From a virus, in IMG/VR virus record IMGVR_UViG_3300042452_000294, positions 1 to 21,043 of that record: a stretch of DNA of 21,043 nucleotides. One strand, 5' to 3'. The notes under the pieces are model-generated. The model was not told the origin of the DNA. It searched no databases and worked only from the letters and a program-made list of their open reading frames with translations. Both the position numbers and the translations under genes were made by a program. Of this stretch, positions 11,263-20,435 are shown in pieces (the first letter of the stretch is position 1; each line of letters begins with the position of its first letter).

Positions 11263-12228
11263 TCATGCTGCCGGCGACGAACCCTCGGTACTTGGCGGCA
11301 ACTGCCGAGGATTTGTCGCTGGCCCGTCGAGATCGAGGGGCGGGAGGAAGTCCAGGGCGGACTCGACCCCGGTGATCCGCTCGTCGTAGTAGTGCGTCTC
11401 GGCCATTTCCTCACTGCTGTGGCCGAGCTGCTTCTTTGCCGACTTCCCGGCCCGCTTCAGGTACGAGGCCGTTGATTTGCGGATGCTGTGAAACGGGTGG
11501 TACGGAACGTCTGCCTTCTTGCACAGAACCCTGAGGCTTCCGTAGCAAGACAGGATCTTTCGATCATCCAGCCAAGGCCACACGAGGGCGTCTGCCGGGC
11601 CTTTCTGCGTCGCCATGATCCGGGCCAGTTCCGGCGTGATCGCCCGTGTAATCGTCTCCCTGTGCCCCTTCCGGGTGGCCGCCAGGAAAGTCAGCGTGCA
11701 CCGTTCTAGATCCACTTCGCCCCAGCGGATGGCAAGGATGGCCCCGATCCGCTCGCCGGTCTGAAACATGGCCATCAGCTTCGTCATCCAGTACCAGGCC
11801 GCCGGCTTGCCCGCCACAAGCCCCTTGCGGTGCCGGGCTGCCCTAACCAGGGCGCTGAGCTCATCGGCCGTGTAGGCCACTGGGCGTGGCTTAGGAACGC
11901 GAGGCCGAGCGTAGTCGGGGAACTCGAGCAGCTCTCCGTCAGACCGCTTCCAGCGTTTCTTGGCGAGCCACGTCCACAGGCTCCGCAGGTGCGCTGAGTC
12001 TTTGGCCAGGCTGGCTGGCGAGATCACTCCACGCTTGCGGTCGTGCACGGTCGTGCCACGCCACCTGATGAACCGGGCGGCCGTGAGGTCGTCAAGGTCA
12101 TCGACGGTCGGCTCGTGGCCGAGGAAGTCGCGGAACCTGTCCAACGTGGATTCGTACATCACCACCGACCGCTCGCTGAGATTTTTGAGCGGGGCGATTC
12201 GGTCCTTTAGCAGCTCTCGCAAAGTCAT
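11263..12228 (-). CDS. int: Tyrosine recombinase / phage integrase
   Basis: A 321-residue tyrosine recombinase. There is an N-terminal SAM-like DNA-binding half (LSERSVVMYESTLDRFRDFLG) and a catalytic half with R160 (TGERIGAILAIRW), K187 in the beta-hairpin, H247-x-x-R250 (HSIRKSTASYL), H270 (QLGHSS) and nucleophile Y280 or Y281 (ETHYYDE). All catalytic residues appear present. It catalyses phage integration and, with an excisionase, excision. AGGAG lies 7 bases upstream of the ATG. It is the only minus-strand gene, transcribed from a promoter at 12262-12289. Confidence 0.93.
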   Translation of the reverse strand: MTLRELLKDRIAPLKNLSERSVVMYESTLDRFRDFLGHEPTVDDLDDLTAARFIRWRGTTVHDRKRGVISPASLAKDSAHLRSLWTWLAKKRWKRSDGELLEFPDYARPRVPKPRPVAYTADELSALVRAARHRKGLVAGKPAAWYWMTKLMAMFQTGERIGAILAIRWGEVDLERCTLTFLAATRKGHRETITRAITPELARIMATQKGPADALVWPWLDDRKILSCYGSLRVLCKKADVPYHPFHSIRKSTASYLKRAGKSAKKQLGHSSEEMAETHYYDERITGVESALDFLPPLDLDGPATNPRQLPPSTEGSSPAA

Positions 12229-12289: not shown

Positions 12290-12346
12290 CCTACACCCCA
12301 TCCGTTAACAACAACCGGCCTTGGCGGCCACGCGGGTAGTGTACAG
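12274..12346 (+). repeat. Direct repeat GTGTACAG, 65 bp apart
   Basis: GTGTACAG occurs at 12274-12281 and 12339-12346, within the 200-bp int/xis intergenic region. The first copy sits in the int promoter spacer. These may be operators, or arm-type sites for the integrase or excisionase. The rest of 12229-12428 has no gene; no core attachment site can be recognised without the host sequence. Confidence 0.5.
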
Positions 12347-12393
12347 ACTTTCGAGTGCCGTAGACAATGGAAGGTGTTCCGGCTGGCGGCAGA

Positions 12394-12421
12394 TTGACGG
12401 CCATAGCGACGGCGTTAAATT
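12394..12421 (+). promoter_or_regulatory. Promoter of the Xis-like HTH gene
   Basis: TTGACG at 12394-12399 and TAAATT at 12416-12421 have a 16-base spacer. The GCGTTA element overlaps spacer and -10. Predicted transcription starts near 12428, next to the ATG at 12429, so the mRNA could be nearly leaderless if that ATG is used. Confidence 0.4.
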
Positions 12422-12428
12422 GCGGGGC

Positions 12429-12665
12429 ATGGTGATGGTGCTGCCCGAGGGCAAGAAGTTGATTTCCACGGCTGAGGCCGCCAAAGCCCTTGGCGTGTCC
12501 ATGGGCCGTGTCCGCCAGCTCGGGATCCTCGGGCCCAAGAAGGGCGGCCTGACCCGCTACTGGGCCGCCCCGACCGCCCTGGTGTTCGACGCCGAAGAGG
12601 TGGCCAAGCTGGCCAAGGCGAAGCGGGCGACCGGCCGCCCTCGCGGCGGGTTCAAGGCGAACTGA
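12429..12665 (+). CDS. Xis/MerR-like small HTH protein
   Basis: A 78-residue protein. A helix-turn-helix of the MerR/excisionase type is visible: LISTAEAAKALGVSMGRVRQLGIL, then a wing-like TRYWAAP and FDAEEVAKLAK. The C-terminus is basic (RATGRPRGGF), consistent with DNA contact. It is divergent from int, the usual place of an excisionase or integration regulator. ATG 12429 is chosen over the in-frame ATG 12321, which adds an unlike stretch across the intergenic region; ATG 12435 is also possible. Either directionality factor or repressor is possible. Confidence 0.68.
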   Translation: MVMVLPEGKKLISTAEAAKALGVSMGRVRQLGILGPKKGGLTRYWAAPTALVFDAEEVAKLAKAKRATGRPRGGFKAN

Positions 12666-13418: not shown

Positions 13419-14309
13419 ATGGTTCAGATTCGCAAAGCCCGCCGCAGTGCTACGAAGCTGCGGCTCCTGCTCACCGGCCCCAGCGGCAGCGGGAAGACGT
13501 GGGGTGCCCTGCAGATTGCCAAGGGCATCGGCGGCAAGTGCGTGGTGATCGACACGGAGGAAGGCTCGTCCGACCTCTACGACCACCTGCACGACTTCGA
13601 CGTGATTGACCTGCGACCGCCGTTCTCGCCGGAGCGGTACATCGAGGCCATCACGGCGGCCGAGGAGGCTGGCTACGAAGTCATCATCGTGGACAGCGTC
13701 ACCCACTGCTGGAGCGGGTCGGGTGGGTGCCTGGAGATCCTCGAGGACGTTGCGAAGGCGCAGTTCCGTGGCAATACGTGGTCCGCGTTCAGCGTGATCA
13801 CGCCTCGGTGGCGGGCCTTCGTGGACAAGCTTTTGCGGTCTCCGGCCCACATCATCTGCTCAGGCCGGTCGAAGACCGAGACGGCCCAGGTGGACGACCA
13901 CGGCAAGAAGAAGGTGGCCAAGCTCGGAATGAAGCTGGAGGCCCGCGACGGGCTGGAGTTTGAGTTCACCTGCGTGCTCGACGTGATCCACGACGGGCAC
14001 TACGCCACGGTCAGCAAGGACCGCACGGGTCTCTTCGCTGGCGATCCCAAGCCCATCACGGTCGAGACGGGCCGGCGGCTGGCTGAGTGGCTGGCCGGCG
14101 GGCACGCGATCGCGACGGACGACATCGACGTGGTCGAGAAGGCCCGCGAGGCCATTCACGACGCCGCGAGTGTTGACCGGCTGGACAAGGTGATGAAGGT
14201 CGTGGCCCAGCGGGTCACGGAAAAGCGCATCACGGAGAAGACCGCTGCCTCGTTGTGTGACGAGGCGGCTGCGAAGCGGACGGAACTCACCACGGCCGTG
14301 ACGGCCTGA
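13419..14309 (+). CDS. AAA_24 / Sak4-like RecA-fold ATPase
   Basis: A 296-residue protein. Walker A is GPSGSGKT at 20-27, Walker B is VIIVDS with D92, and the intermediate DTEEGSSDLYDHL fits the RecA-fold phage ATPases of PF13479 (AAA_24), which include Sak4 single-strand annealing recombinases. The C-terminal 70 residues are a helical tail (ASVDRLDKVMKVVAQRV) shared with relatives. It would promote homologous annealing of phage DNA. It is followed immediately by an SSB-like gene and two nucleases, the expected partners. ACGAAAGGA precedes the ATG by 8 bases. Confidence 0.82.
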   Translation: MVQIRKARRSATKLRLLLTGPSGSGKTWGALQIAKGIGGKCVVIDTEEGSSDLYDHLHDFDVIDLRPPFSPERYIEAITAAEEAGYEVIIVDSVTHCWSGSGGCLEILEDVAKAQFRGNTWSAFSVITPRWRAFVDKLLRSPAHIICSGRSKTETAQVDDHGKKKVAKLGMKLEARDGLEFEFTCVLDVIHDGHYATVSKDRTGLFAGDPKPITVETGRRLAEWLAGGHAIATDDIDVVEKAREAIHDAASVDRLDKVMKVVAQRVTEKRITEKTAASLCDEAAAKRTELTTAVTA

Positions 14310-14326: not shown

Positions 14327-14815
14327 ATGGACTTCACGATTGCACAGAACGACCAGACCACGGCGGGTGTCATCGACCGCGAGATCGTGCCTGCTGGCAC
14401 GCATCTCATGGAGATCAAGGCCGCTGAGGAGAAGACCAACCAGTACAAGGTCTGCGACGAGAACCCGCACGGGCACGTCCTGGCACTGCGGCTGGCGACG
14501 AACGGCGGCAACTACCGCTTCGTGTTCGACGACATCCCGCAGCACCTCGGGTGGCGTGCCCAGCAGCTCGCCGCCGCGTGTGGGTTCGACGTGGCGAGCG
14601 GCACCCTGTCGCTCAATCCTGATGACCTCGTGGGTCGCGTGCTGAACGTCGAGATCAGCCACTACACGAGCAAGGCCGGCAAGGTGTCGGCGGTCGTGAA
14701 GAAGTACCTGCCGGCGTCGCCTGCTGCAGCCAACAAGCCGAAGGCTGCGACGGCCGTGAAGCGGTCGCCAGCGGCGAAGGTGACGGCTGCGTCCGATGAC
14801 TCCATCCCTTTCTGA
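14327..14815 (+). CDS. DUF669-type single-stranded DNA-binding protein
   Basis: A 162-residue protein. The beginning and middle (IDREIVPAGTHLMEIKAAEE, NYRFVFDDIP, LVGRVLNVEISHYTSKAGKVSAVVKKYLP) match the pattern of DUF669-family phage SSB-like proteins. The C-terminus is a Lys/Ala-rich linker of about 30 residues ending in an acidic tip, DDSIPF, the typical SSB tail that recruits other replication proteins. It is adjacent to the Sak4-like ATPase, a frequent pairing in phages. GAAAGGACTGAACC precedes the ATG. Confidence 0.78.
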   Translation: MDFTIAQNDQTTAGVIDREIVPAGTHLMEIKAAEEKTNQYKVCDENPHGHVLALRLATNGGNYRFVFDDIPQHLGWRAQQLAAACGFDVASGTLSLNPDDLVGRVLNVEISHYTSKAGKVSAVVKKYLPASPAAANKPKAATAVKRSPAAKVTAASDDSIPF

Positions 14816-15168: not shown

Positions 15169-15325
15169 CACAACGGCACGCGGTTGCCTGAGCGGCTTGA
15201 AGCTGCATCCGCCCGTAACGCCGGCCCAGTGCGGATGAACGCCGGCAGTCGCAGTGATCCTCCTCCCGATCGTGATGCGACCGCCGGCCCGGCGTCACAG
15301 GGCCAATACACATGGGAAGGAATCC

Positions 15326-15847
15326 ATGAGCGGTTACTACGAACGCACTCCTGCTGTGAACACGGACGGCTCGCCGACATTCGCAACAGCCTCGGACCTT
15401 TCTGCACAGAAGGCAGTCGCTCGGATGCTAGAGGACGCTTGGGGGCCAAACGTCAGCATTTCTGCGTTCCCAAGGCTGCACGTGATCGACTTCTATGCCG
15501 AGCGTGACGGCCGAGTTTCCGCGCTCTTGGAATTGAAGTGCCGCTCTCACGAGTCGAGTGCCTATCCGACTGTGTTCCTAAACATGAGGAAGTGGATAGC
15601 ACTGCTGTGGCACGCCGGAATGCTTGGAATTGCGCCCCTGTTTGTCGTGAGGTTCACCGACTGCGTCATGTGGTGCGACGTTCGCGAGATCGACGCCCGA
15701 CAGCACATTATTGGCGGGACCAAAACCATTGTGAAGTCTTCATCCGACATTGAGCCCGTCATCGAGGTTCCCGTTGCGCAGATGAAGACCGTTTTTCTTC
15801 CGTCGTGCCAAACCACTACCGAAAACGAGGCCACGGATGGCCGCTGA
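15326..15847 (+). CDS. PD-(D/E)XK-type endonuclease-like protein
   Basis: A 173-residue protein. An IDFYAERDGRVSALLELKCR segment gives D55 and E69-x-K71, the order and strand layout of a PD-(D/E)XK nuclease core, preceded by a helix with QKAVARMLEDAW and followed by a helix (MRKWIALLWHAG) as in Holliday-junction-resolvase-like phage enzymes. GGAAGGAATCC precedes ATG 15326, supporting this start over ATG 15254. It would process recombination intermediates or cut foreign DNA. It overlaps the HNH gene by 11 bases. Confidence 0.68.
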   Translation: MSGYYERTPAVNTDGSPTFATASDLSAQKAVARMLEDAWGPNVSISAFPRLHVIDFYAERDGRVSALLELKCRSHESSAYPTVFLNMRKWIALLWHAGMLGIAPLFVVRFTDCVMWCDVREIDARQHIIGGTKTIVKSSSDIEPVIEVPVAQMKTVFLPSCQTTTENEATDGR

Positions 15848-16355
15848 TTGCCAGCATAAAAGCCGCCTTGTTCGCAAACAAAACAGCGCCGGCGTCTGGA
15901 TGTTCACCTACCAGTGCCAGGCCTGCGGCGAGATTGACCGAGCAATGACGCCCAGCGGCGGAGTGTGGGTGCCACGGTCTGCCGTCACGCTCGACATCGA
16001 AGATATTCCCGTTTTTGACGACGCGCTGCGGAACCATGTCATGCAGCGGGCTGCAGCAACTGTGCACGCAGCGCGTGAGGTTGAGCGTGAAGAGTGGTGG
16101 GATCGGTACGACGAGTACCTATCGACGTACGAGTGGCATCAGAAACGCGAGCGTGTGCTGCGTCGCGATAAGTACCTCTGCCAAGGATGCCTTGAGCACG
16201 AGGCCATCCACGTGCATCACCTGACCTATGCGCGGTTGTTCAACGAACTGCTGTGCGATCTCGTCTCGCTGTGTGGTCCGTGCCACCAACTGTGTCACCC
16301 GTACAAGGACATTTCAGGAAGGAGCTGGCATGGATTCGCTCGACCAGTGCATTGA
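15837..16355 (+). CDS. HNH endonuclease with N-terminal zinc ribbon-like part
   Basis: A 172-residue protein. The C-terminal half has the HNH-type treble clef: C115-x-x-C118, HVHH at 125-128, N136, C146-x-x-C149 and H150. The N-terminal part has C5, H7, C27 and C30, suggesting an extra zinc site. Linked by a helical middle rich in Glu/Arg/Trp. It could be a nicking nuclease for replication or packaging, or a homing-type nuclease; its location within a compact operon favours a phage-function role. Its end overlaps the primase-helicase start by 26 bases. Confidence 0.78.
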   Translation: MAADCQHKSRLVRKQNSAGVWMFTYQCQACGEIDRAMTPSGGVWVPRSAVTLDIEDIPVFDDALRNHVMQRAAATVHAAREVEREEWWDRYDEYLSTYEWHQKRERVLRRDKYLCQGCLEHEAIHVHHLTYARLFNELLCDLVSLCGPCHQLCHPYKDISGRSWHGFARPVH

Positions 16356-18111
16356 TTTCCTCGGCGCGATCTTTGAGCCCGAGGACATCATCGAGTTCCG
16401 ACCGCTCCCACCGCAGAACGCGGGCCGGAAGTGGGCACCGCTCTCGGAACTGCCAGACATCGTCGATTGGCTGCAAGGGCTGAACGCTGACGAGCAGCTG
16501 CGGGTGCATGCCTATTTCGGAGCCAATCCACGCAACGCCAAGGGCGTTAGCCAGGCCGAAGGCGTGAAGCTGGCTCGGTGCCTGTTTGCCGACTTCGACG
16601 GTGGCGTGATTGTCGAGGACGCCTGGGCCCGCATCAAGGCGGCCGGATTCCCGATGCCGACGGCGACAATCGAGAGCGGTGGCGGCGTCCATACGTGGTG
16701 GCGGCTCGACACGCCGATGCTGGATGCGGCTGCATGGCACGACCGAATGAAGGGCATCGCGTCGGCTGTCGGCTCCGATCAGTCGATCTGCGATTGGCCG
16801 CGAATCATGAGGTTGCCCGGCTTCGTGAATTGGAAGCACGAGCAGAGGCCCCTCGCGCGGCTTGCGGACTGTGACCCGACGCGGGTGTACGGCTTGTCCG
16901 CGTTCAAGAGCGGGGCGGCTCAGTCGATCGTGGTCGCGCCCAAGTCGATGAGCGACCTGACTCGGCGGTTCCTCGAGGAGGGCTTCACGCTCGCGGCTGG
17001 CCGGCGGCAGACGATGTTCACGGTCGCCTGCGACATGGCGGCCCGAGGGTGGGGTGTTGCCGAGGCCACGGCCACGATCATGGCCCGCATGCGGACGGTG
17101 GGCCTGCGGACGGACGACCTTGAGGACTGCCCGCGTCAGATAGCCAACGCCTGGAAGCGGCCACGGCTTCCGGTCATCGGCTCGGCTGACGAGGCCCAGC
17201 CGGTGGTGGACGCCATCGACGAGACGCCGACGCCCACGTTGCTGGACGCCATCGAGGCGTGGCGGCAGCAGGAGGACACGCCGGCCCTGCCGACTGGCAT
17301 CCCGTCGCTCGATCGCCTATTCGACGGCGGATTGCCACTCGGGCAGATGACGGCGCTGGCGGCGGCCCCCGGCGTGGGTAAGTCGGCGCTGGCGTTGCAC
17401 CTCGCCATCCAGTGCCTGGTGGAAAACACCGAGCTCGTGGCGACGTGGTGCCTGGGTGAGATGACCAAGGCGTCGCTGGCCGCTCGGGCCATCACCAACT
17501 TTGACGGCCGGCAGCGCGGGCTGACGCTGCAGGACGTGATCCACAAGAAGCCGCCCGCCGACGAGATCGCCACCGGCATGGGCGAGCGGATCGGGCGACG
17601 CCTCAAGATCATCGAAGCCCCGCTTGTCATCGACCGCATCGAGCGGGCCGTGGCCAAGGACAAGCCGCAGCTGCTGATCGTGGACTACGTCCAGCTCGTG
17701 CAATCGAGCCGGCATTTTCAGGATGCCACGGGTGAGATCGTGGACTGCCTGCGGAAACTGCGGCAGATCACCACGGCCCACAACATGGCGACGCTCATCG
17801 TCACGAACATCGCCAAGGGCTGCGACCACAACACCGAGATTGGCAACATCGGGAAGGGGTCGAACCAGATCGACTTCGACGTGGACAACTTCCTGTTCGG
17901 TCACCGGTCTGGCGAGACCTGCGACGACGGCGGCATCAAGATCGAATGGAAGTGCAAGAAGCTTCGCCAGGGCCAGATGGCCGACGTGGAACTGTGGTTC
18001 TTCGGGAAGTACCAGCAGTTTGAGGACGGCTCGGCCCCGGTGTTCGGTGAGATCGAGGAGTTCAAGCGGTTCGCTCCACCGGCCGGCGGCACCGATTGGA
18101 GCGTCATCTGA
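16330..18111 (+). CDS. Primase-helicase fusion: AEP primase plus DnaB-like helicase
   Basis: A 593-residue protein with two enzymatic parts. The N-terminal half shows archaeo-eukaryotic primase motifs: D88-x-D90 (FADFDG), SGGGVH at 116-121, and D155 to K169 with RLPGFVNWK, as in RepB-like primases. The C-terminal half is a RecA-fold DnaB-type helicase: AAPGVGKS at 345-352, catalytic E377 in CLGEMTK, Walker B LLIVDY at 448-453. It would unwind the fork and make primers. AGGAAGGAG before ATG 16330 fixes the start; the upstream ATG 16228 lies in HNH-coding sequence. It is followed with one base overlap by the initiator gene. Confidence 0.87.
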   Translation: MDSLDQCIDFLGAIFEPEDIIEFRPLPPQNAGRKWAPLSELPDIVDWLQGLNADEQLRVHAYFGANPRNAKGVSQAEGVKLARCLFADFDGGVIVEDAWARIKAAGFPMPTATIESGGGVHTWWRLDTPMLDAAAWHDRMKGIASAVGSDQSICDWPRIMRLPGFVNWKHEQRPLARLADCDPTRVYGLSAFKSGAAQSIVVAPKSMSDLTRRFLEEGFTLAAGRRQTMFTVACDMAARGWGVAEATATIMARMRTVGLRTDDLEDCPRQIANAWKRPRLPVIGSADEAQPVVDAIDETPTPTLLDAIEAWRQQEDTPALPTGIPSLDRLFDGGLPLGQMTALAAAPGVGKSALALHLAIQCLVENTELVATWCLGEMTKASLAARAITNFDGRQRGLTLQDVIHKKPPADEIATGMGERIGRRLKIIEAPLVIDRIERAVAKDKPQLLIVDYVQLVQSSRHFQDATGEIVDCLRKLRQITTAHNMATLIVTNIAKGCDHNTEIGNIGKGSNQIDFDVDNFLFGHRSGETCDDGGIKIEWKCKKLRQGQMADVELWFFGKYQQFEDGSAPVFGEIEEFKRFAPPAGGTDWSVI

Positions 18112-18704
18112 TGGCCGGGCACCACCACGACAAGAAGCCATCGCGCAAGGGCGAACTACGTCGCCGCTGGCGGGCGTTCCTCGAGGACGGCTCCATAGCC
18201 AGCCTCCGCAGCGAAGGCCGTCTGGTGGCCCTGTACGTGCTGCAGGTGGCCGATTGGTCCACGTGCGAGGTCCGGTTCACCTACCGCCGGGCAGCCCGGT
18301 GCATTTGTGTACACGTCACGAGCGTCCGGAGGGGCGTTTCGCAGTTGGTCGAGGCTGGGATTCTGGAGGTTTTGGAGAAGTCAGCCGGGCCCGGAAAGAC
18401 AAAGTACCGGATCTGCGAGCGCGCACAGTGTGTGTCCACCCCGGACACGAGCCGTGCGCGCTTGTGTACACGAGCCGTGCCCACCCCGGACACGAGTGGT
18501 GCGCGCTCCGGACACGAGCCGTGCGCGCAGCGGACACCAGTTGTGCGCGCAGCGCGCACAGGCCGTGTACACGGTTCAGTCTTTCTCAGTGGTTCTCCAG
18601 TGAGAACCAGTGAGAAATCCAGTGAGGCCACGGCCATGGCCGGTGCAGGACCGGCCAGGCCGTGCCCCACGCCGCAGGATTCGGATTCAGCCGCCGTCGG
18701 TTGA
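18111..18704 (+). CDS. Winged-helix replication initiator-like protein carrying the origin
   Basis: A 197-residue protein. Residues about 20-102 are a winged-helix-like domain: LRSEGRLVALYVLQVADW, then CVHVTSVRRGVSQLVEAGILEVL and a wing GPGKTKYRI, similar to phage O-type initiators. Residues 105-160 are odd, Cys/Arg/Thr/Pro-rich, and coded by seven 22-bp iterons, so their composition is dictated by DNA. It would bind the iterons and load the helicase encoded just upstream (start overlaps its stop, TGATG). The parallel is lambda O with its origin inside the gene. The C-terminus is low-complexity. Confidence 0.68.
   Translation: MAGHHHDKKPSRKGELRRRWRAFLEDGSIASLRSEGRLVALYVLQVADWSTCEVRFTYRRAARCICVHVTSVRRGVSQLVEAGILEVLEKSAGPGKTKYRICERAQCVSTPDTSRARLCTRAVPTPDTSGARSGHEPCAQRTPVVRAARTGRVHGSVFLSGSPVRTSEKSSEATAMAGAGPARPCPTPQDSDSAAVG
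18423..18568 (+). repeat. Seven iteron-like repeats, 22-bp period
   Basis: Cores begin at 18423, 18445, 18468, 18490, 18512, 18534 and 18556: a step of 22 each time except one of 23. The consensus core is ACACGAGCCGTGC, a dyad (CACG-AGC-CGTG). Copies 2, 3 and 5 are identical over 13 bases; copies 4 and 6 vary in the middle; copies 1 and 7 fit as well or better when read inverted. The step of 22 shifts the reading frame each time, so selection is on DNA. Confidence 0.85.
18582..18617 (+). repeat. 36-bp palindrome following the iterons
   Basis: TTTCTCAGTGGTTCTC (18582-18597) and GAGAACCAGTGAGAAA (18602-18617) are inverted repeats matching in 15 of 16 pairs, around a 4-base centre CAGT. It is much less GC-rich than its surroundings and lies 14 bases after the last iteron core. 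Confidence 0.8.
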
Positions 18705-18710
18705 CGGCGG
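18691..18710 (+). promoter_or_regulatory. Perfect hairpin over the initiator stop codon
   Basis: CCGCCGTC and GACGGCGG form an 8-bp stem with a GGTT loop; the TGA stop (18702-18704) is within it. No T-run follows, so a mRNA stabilising or attenuating role is more likely than termination. Confidence 0.4.
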
Positions 18711-18738
18711 GAGTACCACAGGAGCGAGAGGTGTACCC

Positions 18739-18963
18739 ATGAGCACGGAAGCGGAGCCGGACAAGCTGACGGAGCGGCAGCAGGAGGTCTACGAGTTCAT
18801 CTGCAAGAACGCCGGCTTCTACGGGCCGACGGTCAGAGAGATTGCCGCCGCGCTCCAGATCGCCTCGCCAAACGGCGTGGTGTGCCACCTGAAGGCTTTG
18901 GAGCGGAAGGGGCGTATCCGGAGAACCCCCGGCATCAGTCGTGGCATAGAGGTGCTCACATGA
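18739..18963 (+). CDS. Orphan LexA-type DNA-binding domain protein
   Basis: A 74-residue protein matching the N-terminal winged-helix of LexA (PF01726): LTERQQEVYEFICKNAGFYGPTVREIAAALQI, then NGVVCHLKALERKGRIRR and GISRGIEVL. The LexA peptidase half (Ser-Lys dyad and cleavage site) is absent, so RecA could not inactivate it by self-cleavage. GAGAGG is 7 bases before ATG 18739; the upstream ATG 18610 would code an unlike basic stretch. It could repress host or phage SOS-type promoters, or be the phage repressor. Start of the next gene overlaps its stop (ATGA). Confidence 0.75.
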   Translation: MSTEAEPDKLTERQQEVYEFICKNAGFYGPTVREIAAALQIASPNGVVCHLKALERKGRIRRTPGISRGIEVLT

Positions 18964-19205
18964 GCCCAGAGAGCCCATGCCCGGCCCCGGCTCCAGGCAT
19001 CCTTGCCGACATGTGTGCCGTCGCCGCGTGGGACGATCACGTCGATGACCACGCCCGCAAGCTGCTCGAGTGGTCCGCCGACACGATCCGCGCGTTGATG
19101 GTGGCGAACGGCCGCTATGCGAATCGGGCCGAGCACTACGAAGCCGAGGCGGCGACGTACGCGGCCCTGCTCTACGGCCCGAATCAGAAGGGCGGTGCGG
19201 CGTGA
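18960..19205 (+). CDS. Small helical protein, unknown function
   Basis: An 81-residue protein, coupled to the LexA-type gene by a 4-base overlap (ATGA). It is mostly helical: WDDHVDDHARKLLEWSADTIRALMVANGRYANRAEHYEAEAATY broken into two amphipathic helices. No motif is recognised. It might partner its neighbour as a dimerising or inhibitory factor, given the coupling; this is inference. Confidence 0.5.
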   Translation: MSPESPCPAPAPGILADMCAVAAWDDHVDDHARKLLEWSADTIRALMVANGRYANRAEHYEAEAATYAALLYGPNQKGGAA

Positions 19206-19381
19206 CGCTCCGCGACTTCGTCTGTATCGCAATCGGTGAATTGCTCCTGGCGATGACGTTCATCCTGGGAGTTTTGGTTGGTGTCTCCATGAAGCGAAAG
19301 GAATCGCATGACAACGGCAACGAAGGAACGATCGAAGGCTCGCAAGGCTGGGCCGAGTGGCGCGACGCTGAGCGCCGGTGA
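19202..19381 (+). CDS. Single-span small membrane protein
   Basis: A 59-residue protein from GTG 19202, overlapping the previous stop (GTGA). A hydrophobic segment (CIAIGELLLAMTFILGVLVGV) at about residues 8-28 is followed by MKRKES, so the positive side suggests a C-in topology, and a polar tail. The last 74 bases overlap the DnaN gene in another frame. The tail coding region is thus shared; the tail may be only tolerated. Role unknown; exclusion or small regulatory membrane proteins look like this. Confidence 0.45.
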   Translation: MTLRDFVCIAIGELLLAMTFILGVLVGVSMKRKESHDNGNEGTIEGSQGWAEWRDAERR

Positions 19382-20435
19382 ACTGCGGAAGGCTCTCGGT
19401 GCGGTGGCCCCGGCGGTGCCGACGCGCGGGCCGAAGCCCGTACTGACGAACGTGCTGCTCTCGGGCGGCACGCTCACCGGCACGGATCTGGAATTGCGGA
19501 TCGCCGTCCCGATTGGTTACACCGGAACGGAACTGCTCCTCCCGCACGCCCGGCTCTCGCAGATCGTGGCGAGCCTGTCGCCGGACGCTGAAGTGTCGCT
19601 GCGTGTGGACGGCACGTCGTGCGTGGTGCAGGCCGGGCACGGGACGTGGCGTCTTCCCGTCGAGGATGCCAACGAGTTCCCCGGTGCGGCCGAGGTGGAC
19701 GCGAAGCCCATCGCCCGGCTGCCGGCGGATCAGTTCACGTCGCTCATGGGCAGCGTGCGGTTCGCCACGGACAACGAGTCCAGCCGATACGCCTTGGGCG
19801 GCGTGCTCGTGCAGTTCACTGGCGGCATGCTGTCGCTCGTGGGCACGGACGGCCGGCGGATGTGCGTTGCCGAGTGCGAGATCGACCAGGCCACGGACGA
19901 TACGTCGGTGATCGTGCCGCGCCGGGCGGTAGACGTGCTGTGCCGGCTGGCCCACGGTGCCGATGCCGTGCAGCTGGAGTCCACGGGCCGCGAGTTGGTG
20001 GCCGATGTGGACGGCGTGTCGGTGCGGGCGGCCCTCGTGGAAGGCAAGTTCCCCCGGTGGACCGACGTTGAGCCGAAGCGGACGGTGAAGGCATCGCTGG
20101 TGGTTGTGGGCGAGCTGCTGGCCGCGTGCCGCCAGGCCGCGATCTGCACGAGCGAGCAGAGCAAGGGCGTCACGTTTGCCGTGACGGCAGAGGGGCTGCA
20201 CCTCACGAGCCGGTCGGCCGAGTACGGCGAGGCGTCCTGCACCTGCGACCTCGTCGAGCCGGGCCAGGCGTGCGTGGTGTCGCTCGACCCGCGCTTCGTG
20301 ACGGAGTGGCTTGGGTGCGGCTCGTTTGACCAGGCCGAGACGGTAGAGCTCGAGGCGGCAGACGCCCAGTCAGCCGTGGTGCTGCGGGCTCAGGATTGCC
20401 GCTGCGTGGTCATGCCTCTCGCGGTGGAGGGCTGA
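19308..20435 (+). CDS. dnaN: DNA polymerase III beta subunit-like sliding clamp
   Basis: A 375-residue protein, close to the usual DnaN length. Features are an initial domain with GELRKALGAVAPAVPTRGPKPVLTNVLL, a second domain with FATDNESSRYALGGVLVQF and LVGTDGRRMCVAECEI (the classical YxLnGv and atDgrRla patterns), and a C-terminal VVMPLAVEG like the usual M-P-x-R/L end. It would form a ring and tether polymerase. No polymerase is in the window, so it probably serves host Pol III or a polymerase to the right. AAAGGAATCGC precedes ATG 19308. Confidence 0.88.
   Translation: MTTATKERSKARKAGPSGATLSAGELRKALGAVAPAVPTRGPKPVLTNVLLSGGTLTGTDLELRIAVPIGYTGTELLLPHARLSQIVASLSPDAEVSLRVDGTSCVVQAGHGTWRLPVEDANEFPGAAEVDAKPIARLPADQFTSLMGSVRFATDNESSRYALGGVLVQFTGGMLSLVGTDGRRMCVAECEIDQATDDTSVIVPRRAVDVLCRLAHGADAVQLESTGRELVADVDGVSVRAALVEGKFPRWTDVEPKRTVKASLVVVGELLAACRQAAICTSEQSKGVTFAVTAEGLHLTSRSAEYGEASCTCDLVEPGQACVVSLDPRFVTEWLGCGSFDQAETVELEAADAQSAVVLRAQDCRCVVMPLAVEG

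Follow-up and report, generated by a model that had tools for sequence, protein, structure and literature searches.

A phased iteron array inside a phage winged-helix gene, a probable nested replication origin

We analysed a 21,043-bp stretch of viral DNA, hereafter the window, from IMG/VR virus record IMGVR_UViG_3300042452_000294, which is possibly a fragment. The results showed seven dyad iterons within a winged-helix gene, located in its 3' half and beginning 310 bp from its start. We infer that the encoded protein binds this array and that the array, joined to an AT-richer segment of repeats and hairpins, very probably constitutes a replication origin nested in its own initiator gene.

Geometry of the array and its gene neighbourhood

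The positions of the units (Table 1) were set by a CAC-N5-GTG anchor, and the CAC of the seven cores starts at 18424, 18446, 18469, 18491, 18513, 18535 and 18557. The motif GNNCAC-N5-GTGNNC matched seven times in the 21,043 bp, always inside the array, whereas 100 dinucleotide shuffles of the window gave a mean of 0.99 matches, a maximum of 4 and never 7. Tandem Repeats Finder scored the array at 120 (period 22) and 145 (period 44), the top two scores in the window, and an Rfam search returned no match. An earlier note on this DNA had reported seven copies at steps of 22 with one of 23, and all were confirmed in place. Its 13-letter consensus fits the first and last copies poorly; what all seven share is CAC-N5-GTG. 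Since the units are dyads, half-sites recur every 11 bp in alternating orientation. Within units and across linkers alike, the outer half-site triplets were no more symmetrical than composition predicts. The proposal that bound proteins would lie on one face of the helix holds only roughly, because a step of 22 bp makes 2.1 turns when a turn takes 10.5 bp, a drift of ~34 degrees per unit.

Table 1. Coordinates of the iterons, adjoining elements and genes in the window
Feature	Position	Strand	Remarks
Primase-helicase gene	16330..18111	+	Directly 5' of initiator gene; PF16793 5.4e-6, PF03796 7.2e-21
Putative initiator gene, 197 aa	18111..18704	+	Same place directly 3' of helicase in relatives
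Winged-helix domain, residues 12-101	18144..18413	+	AlphaFold model, pLDDT 88
Predicted recognition helix codons, residues 69-81	18315..18353	+	AlphaFold model; residue 70 T or N
Iteron array, seven 17-bp dyads GNNCAC-N5-GTGNNC	18421..18570		Steps 22,23,22,22,22,22
Iteron 1, GCGCACAGTGTGTGTCC	18421..18437		Dyad motif
Iteron 2, GGACACGAGCCGTGCGC	18443..18459		Dyad motif
Iteron 3, GTACACGAGCCGTGCCC	18466..18482		Dyad motif; preceded by 23-bp step
Iteron 4, GGACACGAGTGGTGCGC	18488..18504		Dyad motif
Iteron 5, GGACACGAGCCGTGCGC	18510..18526		Dyad motif
Iteron 6, GGACACCAGTTGTGCGC	18532..18548		Dyad motif
Iteron 7, GCGCACAGGCCGTGTAC	18554..18570		Dyad motif
Five CAGT copies (18577, 18587, 18598, 18608, 18620)	18577..18623		Candidate unwinding element
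Hairpin 1, 16-bp arms, one G-G mismatch, loop CAGT	18582..18617		Compensatory changes in relatives
Hairpin 2, TGGCCGGT-GCAGG-ACCGGCCA	18637..18657		GC-rich; similar distance in same-branch relatives
LexA-like gene	18739-18963	+	DNA-binding domain 18739-18960, E 1.7e-19; no peptidase domain

The ATG of the initiator gene overlaps the stop codon of the gene before it (TGATG). By Pfam, that gene encodes a RepB/AEP-type primase N-terminus and a DnaB_C helicase C-terminus, with RepB_primase (PF16793) scoring 26.8 bits against a cut-off of 24.3, and the primase part matched the PrimPol AEP domain of PDB 6zp9 at 1.3e-4. The initiator gene had been placed behind the phage's own primase-helicase in the earlier note, and the Pfam results support this identity.

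The winged-helix domain that had been proposed was supported by an AlphaFold model (Table 1). PDB structural neighbours of the model were ordinary winged helices of both regulators and initiators, with regulators of the CodY, MarR, Fur and CRP types in the majority; the matches also included 4pql and 4pt7, entries titled DNA-binding protein and initiator, which we take to be pSK41 RepA. Among the predicted viral structures of BFVD, gpO-type proteins (E 2.2e-4 and 8.2e-4) and RepL were found among many other HTH proteins. The window protein matched no Pfam family, and its best PHROG match was 'replication initiation protein' at E 0.09. Profile searches matched some relatives weakly to RepC, RepL or phage O models, and TIGR01610 phage_O_Nterm was reached by 2 of 26 family members (best E 0.017). 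Because the neighbours mix regulators with initiators and the sequence libraries assign no family, the modelled fold fits an initiator without proving one; many transcription factors share it.

The predominance of regulators among the fold neighbours would also suit an array that acts as an operator, with the winged-helix protein as a transcription regulator of its own operon. We consider this unlikely. The array lies 310 bp inside a gene whose start overlaps the helicase stop, and no promoter-like site was found in 18000-19000. In 12 whole related records the motif amounted to the array plus a few strays, so that almost no copies lie elsewhere. Five to seven phased units with a covarying hairpin exceed the needs of a repressor, and the conserved partner is a helicase.

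Other genes on the plus strand include an AAA_24/Sak4-like ATPase gene (13419-14309) and next after it, in the same module, a gene with weak similarity to single-strand-binding protein (14327-14815). A PDDEXK_14 endonuclease gene (15254-15847) overlaps an HNH endonuclease gene (15837-16355) just 5' of the primase-helicase gene, and a phage DNA polymerase III beta clamp (sliding clamp) is encoded at 19308-20435. The phage is probably temperate, since a tyrosine integrase gene on the minus strand (11263-12228) lies beside a short plus-strand ORF (12321-12665) that, judged by eye only, could encode an excisionase or an HTH protein. An extrachromosomal prophage might use the array as a TubR/tubC-type partition centromere, in which a winged helix binds direct repeats. 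The combination of a winged helix with iterons suits this design, and a TubR fragment appeared among the Foldseek matches (rank 36). It is nevertheless very improbable here: neither TubZ nor a ParM-like motor is encoded among the neighbouring genes examined, the phage carries an integrase gene, and the conserved neighbour is a helicase.

Relatives of the array and the level of selection

A helicase search gave 49 viral loci, 37 of them with readable downstream sequence. An array was present at the same place in all 37, and the helicase-selected relatives encode a winged-helix protein at this locus. We also searched 2.9 million viral contigs at the DNA level, blind to protein, for four CAC-N5-GTG units at 22-bp steps. 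This search found 46 loci, and every one encodes the same winged-helix domain (E 1e-26 to 1e-44), with the array beginning 7-67 nt after it. A DnaB-type helicase gene lies upstream in 44 of them; the other two gave no helicase match in the stretch examined. Relatives that keep the protein and lack the array, which the earlier note had named as evidence against an origin, were not seen among these loci.

Arrays in the 46-locus set contain 5-7 units, and 207 of 249 steps are exactly 22. Many relatives have seven units spaced exactly 22,23,22,22,22,22, and others have six, with or without the 23-bp step. Thirteen of the 46 loci form a second branch, whose helicase matches by its DnaB-type part alone. 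In L192, the member examined, the helicase gene has no primase domain, unlike the window's primase-helicase, and a DUF6551 gene (L192:2112-2969) lies 5' of it.

In a few relatives spacing was kept where the letters changed. Dyads in L011, L020 and L022 are of the GGAAC/GTTCC type, and units in L024 have the form (C/T)AC-N5-GT(G/A). Single units are inverted in place in L022 (about 314-470 of the gene), the spacer of the last unit is inverted between L028 and L030 (GAGCC to GGCTC), and spacer pairs interchange (GAGCC/GGCTC and GTAGC/GCTAC). These in-place inversions and spacer swaps suggest template switching at the dyads. Letters differ and units invert while spacing stays, indicating that one unit after another is rewritten until the entire array has changed, on a grid that stays the same.

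Searches beyond this set were largely negative. The full initiator protein alone, used as query, retrieved no close relatives. In annotated cultured phages the winged-helix domain was unmatched, and helicase identity was about 21-29% among the matches listed. Prophages in 84,980 species genomes included none that was close, the sole match being a 33% primase in a Planctomycetota MAG; a search of 392 Planctomycetota genomes, run without a positive control, found none. Phages with the nested array form a large, unstudied environmental group, and no cultured relative was found in these searches. Helicase relatives at 32-35% identity (L131, L148-L160) showed no comparable array 3' of the helicase (L149 read). 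At 42% helicase identity, L123 encodes a different winged-helix-like protein and carries about three 22-bp copies, with a match of 0.56 against a shuffled maximum of 0.49; these copies, at L123:5569-5640 near the end of the winged-helix-like gene, are of unrelated sequence. The 22-bp grid may have arisen before the present family.

Differences between thirteen close pairs were counted by codon position; the pairs partly overlap, which makes p-values from these counts indicative only. The counts were 125/79/350 in the winged-helix domain (63% at position 3), 45/40/47 in the array and 29/22/25 3' of the array, and within the gene protein-level selection was confined to the winged-helix domain in the pairs compared. 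The half-site GTGACC, which contains TGA, occurred in 0 of 23 units in the read frame versus 18 of 91 others. In L114 the gene ends at the TGA of iteron 4, inside an array of six iterons with perfect dyads in the six outer pairs; at least this phage can therefore do without the C-terminal tail as protein, if the contig is correctly read. The codon-position counts, the frame-specific avoidance of TGA and L114 agree with the earlier view that the conserved unit is DNA, and these comparisons indicate that selection in the array is on DNA, not protein. The accompanying claim that the encoded residues do not repeat holds only in part, since units in the same frame do repeat peptides (STPDTSRAR / PTPDTSGAR).

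Nearly all relatives have no stop in the frame across the array, as would be expected if selection acted on a repetitive protein tail and the DNA repeat were its by-product. Against this stand the even spread of differences over codon positions, the presence of units in each of the three frames, the stop inside the array of L114, the inverted units of L022 and the unrelated letters of class B arrays, so that we give this explanation hardly any weight. Conversely, it is the protein's C-terminal half that appears to be a by-product, arising from reading through the origin.

Covariation between array and protein

Distances between arrays tracked distances between helix 3 sequences when the rest of the domain was allowed for (partial Mantel 0.44, p=0.0004), whereas the control, DNA 3' of the array, did not (partial Mantel -0.15, p=0.95). 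A covariation scan peaked at helix 3 and at residues 24-44, the latter peak being higher and lying outside the recognition helix. Where residue 70 is N, the base next to CAC is G in 0-8%; where it is T, that base is G in 20-93%, bar three phages, which also have no arginine at residue 73. The association of residue 70 with this base (Mann-Whitney p=0.00017) is exploratory, because the residue was chosen after the alignment had been viewed. Residue 70 changes 8 times on the helicase tree, and among five independent well-supported tree pairs four agreed and none opposed, which is too few for a sign test to reach 0.05. Between L192 and L169/L173, and between L209 and L194/L195, the helicases are nearly identical, and residue 70 and the base next to CAC switch together.

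A LexA-like protein is encoded directly 3' of the initiator gene in 25 of 30 relatives, as in the window, and its DNA-binding domain could make it the protein that binds the array. Arrays of class B (GGAACAACTGTTCC) resemble the Gram-positive LexA box, which speaks for such a binder. Its recognition helix, however, does not track the array (partial Mantel -0.01, p 0.50). The arrays of L066/L074 and of L002/L005 are nearly identical, yet their LexA helices differ at 79% and 43%, respectively, and the gene was not found behind the initiator gene in five relatives that keep the array. We therefore regard the LexA-like protein as a highly unlikely binder. For the winged-helix protein, we lean towards the view that the initiator and the origin nested in its gene can be exchanged together as a single unit of specificity, and that the gene's 3' portion, half of its length, is a DNA element merely kept open for translation.

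The adjoining segment and comparison with known origins

The earlier note described the array but overlooked the hairpins and CAGT repeats directly 3' of it. The CAGT copies lie about one helical turn apart and contribute to hairpin 1. At 54% AT, positions 18576-18625 are the most AT-rich 50 bp in the scanned region, most windows of that size across the array having 24-34%; this AT-richness is moderate and less than lambda's. Across 21 relatives, 94% of the cells of hairpin 1 were paired, compared with 37-52% when slid. There were 59 two-sided changes versus 16 in shuffles, and one position showed four Watson-Crick types. The second branch has a similar plan, in which CCTCAA replaces CAGT and a hairpin is kept.

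RSF1010 has iterons, and beside them its two opposed ssi sites, which the primase uses, take the form of hairpins. The window resembles it in having its own helicase, an AEP-type primase (RepB_primase match), iterons and adjacent hairpins, of which there are two. RSF1010 / IncQ encodes the RepA helicase, the RepB' primase and RepC, and carries the ssiA and ssiB sites (PMC4538821). Unlike these separate proteins, primase and helicase are one protein in the window, and the array lies inside the initiator gene. We considered the hairpin as a dedicated RepB'-type primase site, which became less probable because the second branch keeps a hairpin although the helicase gene of its member L192 has no primase domain; a pure RSF1010-like primase site is therefore unlikely. 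The hairpin would more plausibly serve in unwinding or as the place where the helicase enters.

The origin of lambda, and also of the Stx phages P27 and 933W, lies inside the initiator gene; the initiator's N-terminal half binds the iterons, which form imperfect inverted repeats, with an AT-richer segment on one side of the array (PMC7466680, PMC4488673, PMC3349717). Here too, the initiator gene contains dyad iterons, located after the part that encodes the DNA-binding domain, and the AT-richer segment adjoins them 3', although it is weaker than in lambda. Lambda has four iterons and the Stx phages six, of 18-19 bp, whereas these arrays comprise 5-7 dyads set 22 bp apart, among which a step of 23 bp recurs. 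The 'lambda O/ori arrangement' named in the earlier note thus stands as a layout, but no significant sequence match to O families was obtained in the tests run. The C-terminal domain of lambda O recruits the helicase loader P, whose gene comes next; the tail here is without protein-level selection and is mostly missing in L114. No P loader gene was identified, the next gene encodes a LexA-like domain, and the helicase gene lies upstream. Further differences from lambda are the hairpins that covary and the CAGT repeats in helical phase. We infer that the nested array works like lambda O/ori; the likeness is one of arrangement, and membership of the O family is not claimed.

Initiators of the RepABC-type RepC, RepL and pSK41 RepA kinds are likewise winged helices, and there were profile matches to RepC and RepL, but these were weak, many proteins have this fold, and the gene neighbourhood differs. 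The Gram-positive phages SPP1 and TP901-1 have iteron origins inside replisome-organizer genes, with a helicase in the same module. The window shares origin repeats in the initiator gene and a helicase in the module with them, while its protein is unmatched in annotated cultured phages.

In the mechanism that we propose, winged-helix protomers would read GNNCAC half-sites every 11 bp in alternating orientation and coat the 5-7 dyads. The bound protomers would strain the neighbouring CAGT/hairpin segment, leading to its opening or extrusion, and the helicase encoded upstream, primase-fused in the window's branch, would be loaded at the opened segment. A GC-skew check, which the earlier note had suggested, was run in a 49-kb relative and showed no switch at the array.

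This reading would add a large, unstudied phage group to the nested initiator/origin units. The same DNA would serve as putative origin and as reading frame, and the trace of this conflict is measurable, TGA being avoided in the read frame only. With dozens of arrays of near-constant spacing and changing letters, a code at residue 70 and perhaps residue 73 becomes testable by part swaps, which could also probe whether the 23-bp step is needed and what the hairpin does. If initiator and origin are indeed exchanged as one unit, these phages would provide a natural series of orthogonal origins, in which spacing and architecture are largely constant and the protein-DNA code can be read from sequence.
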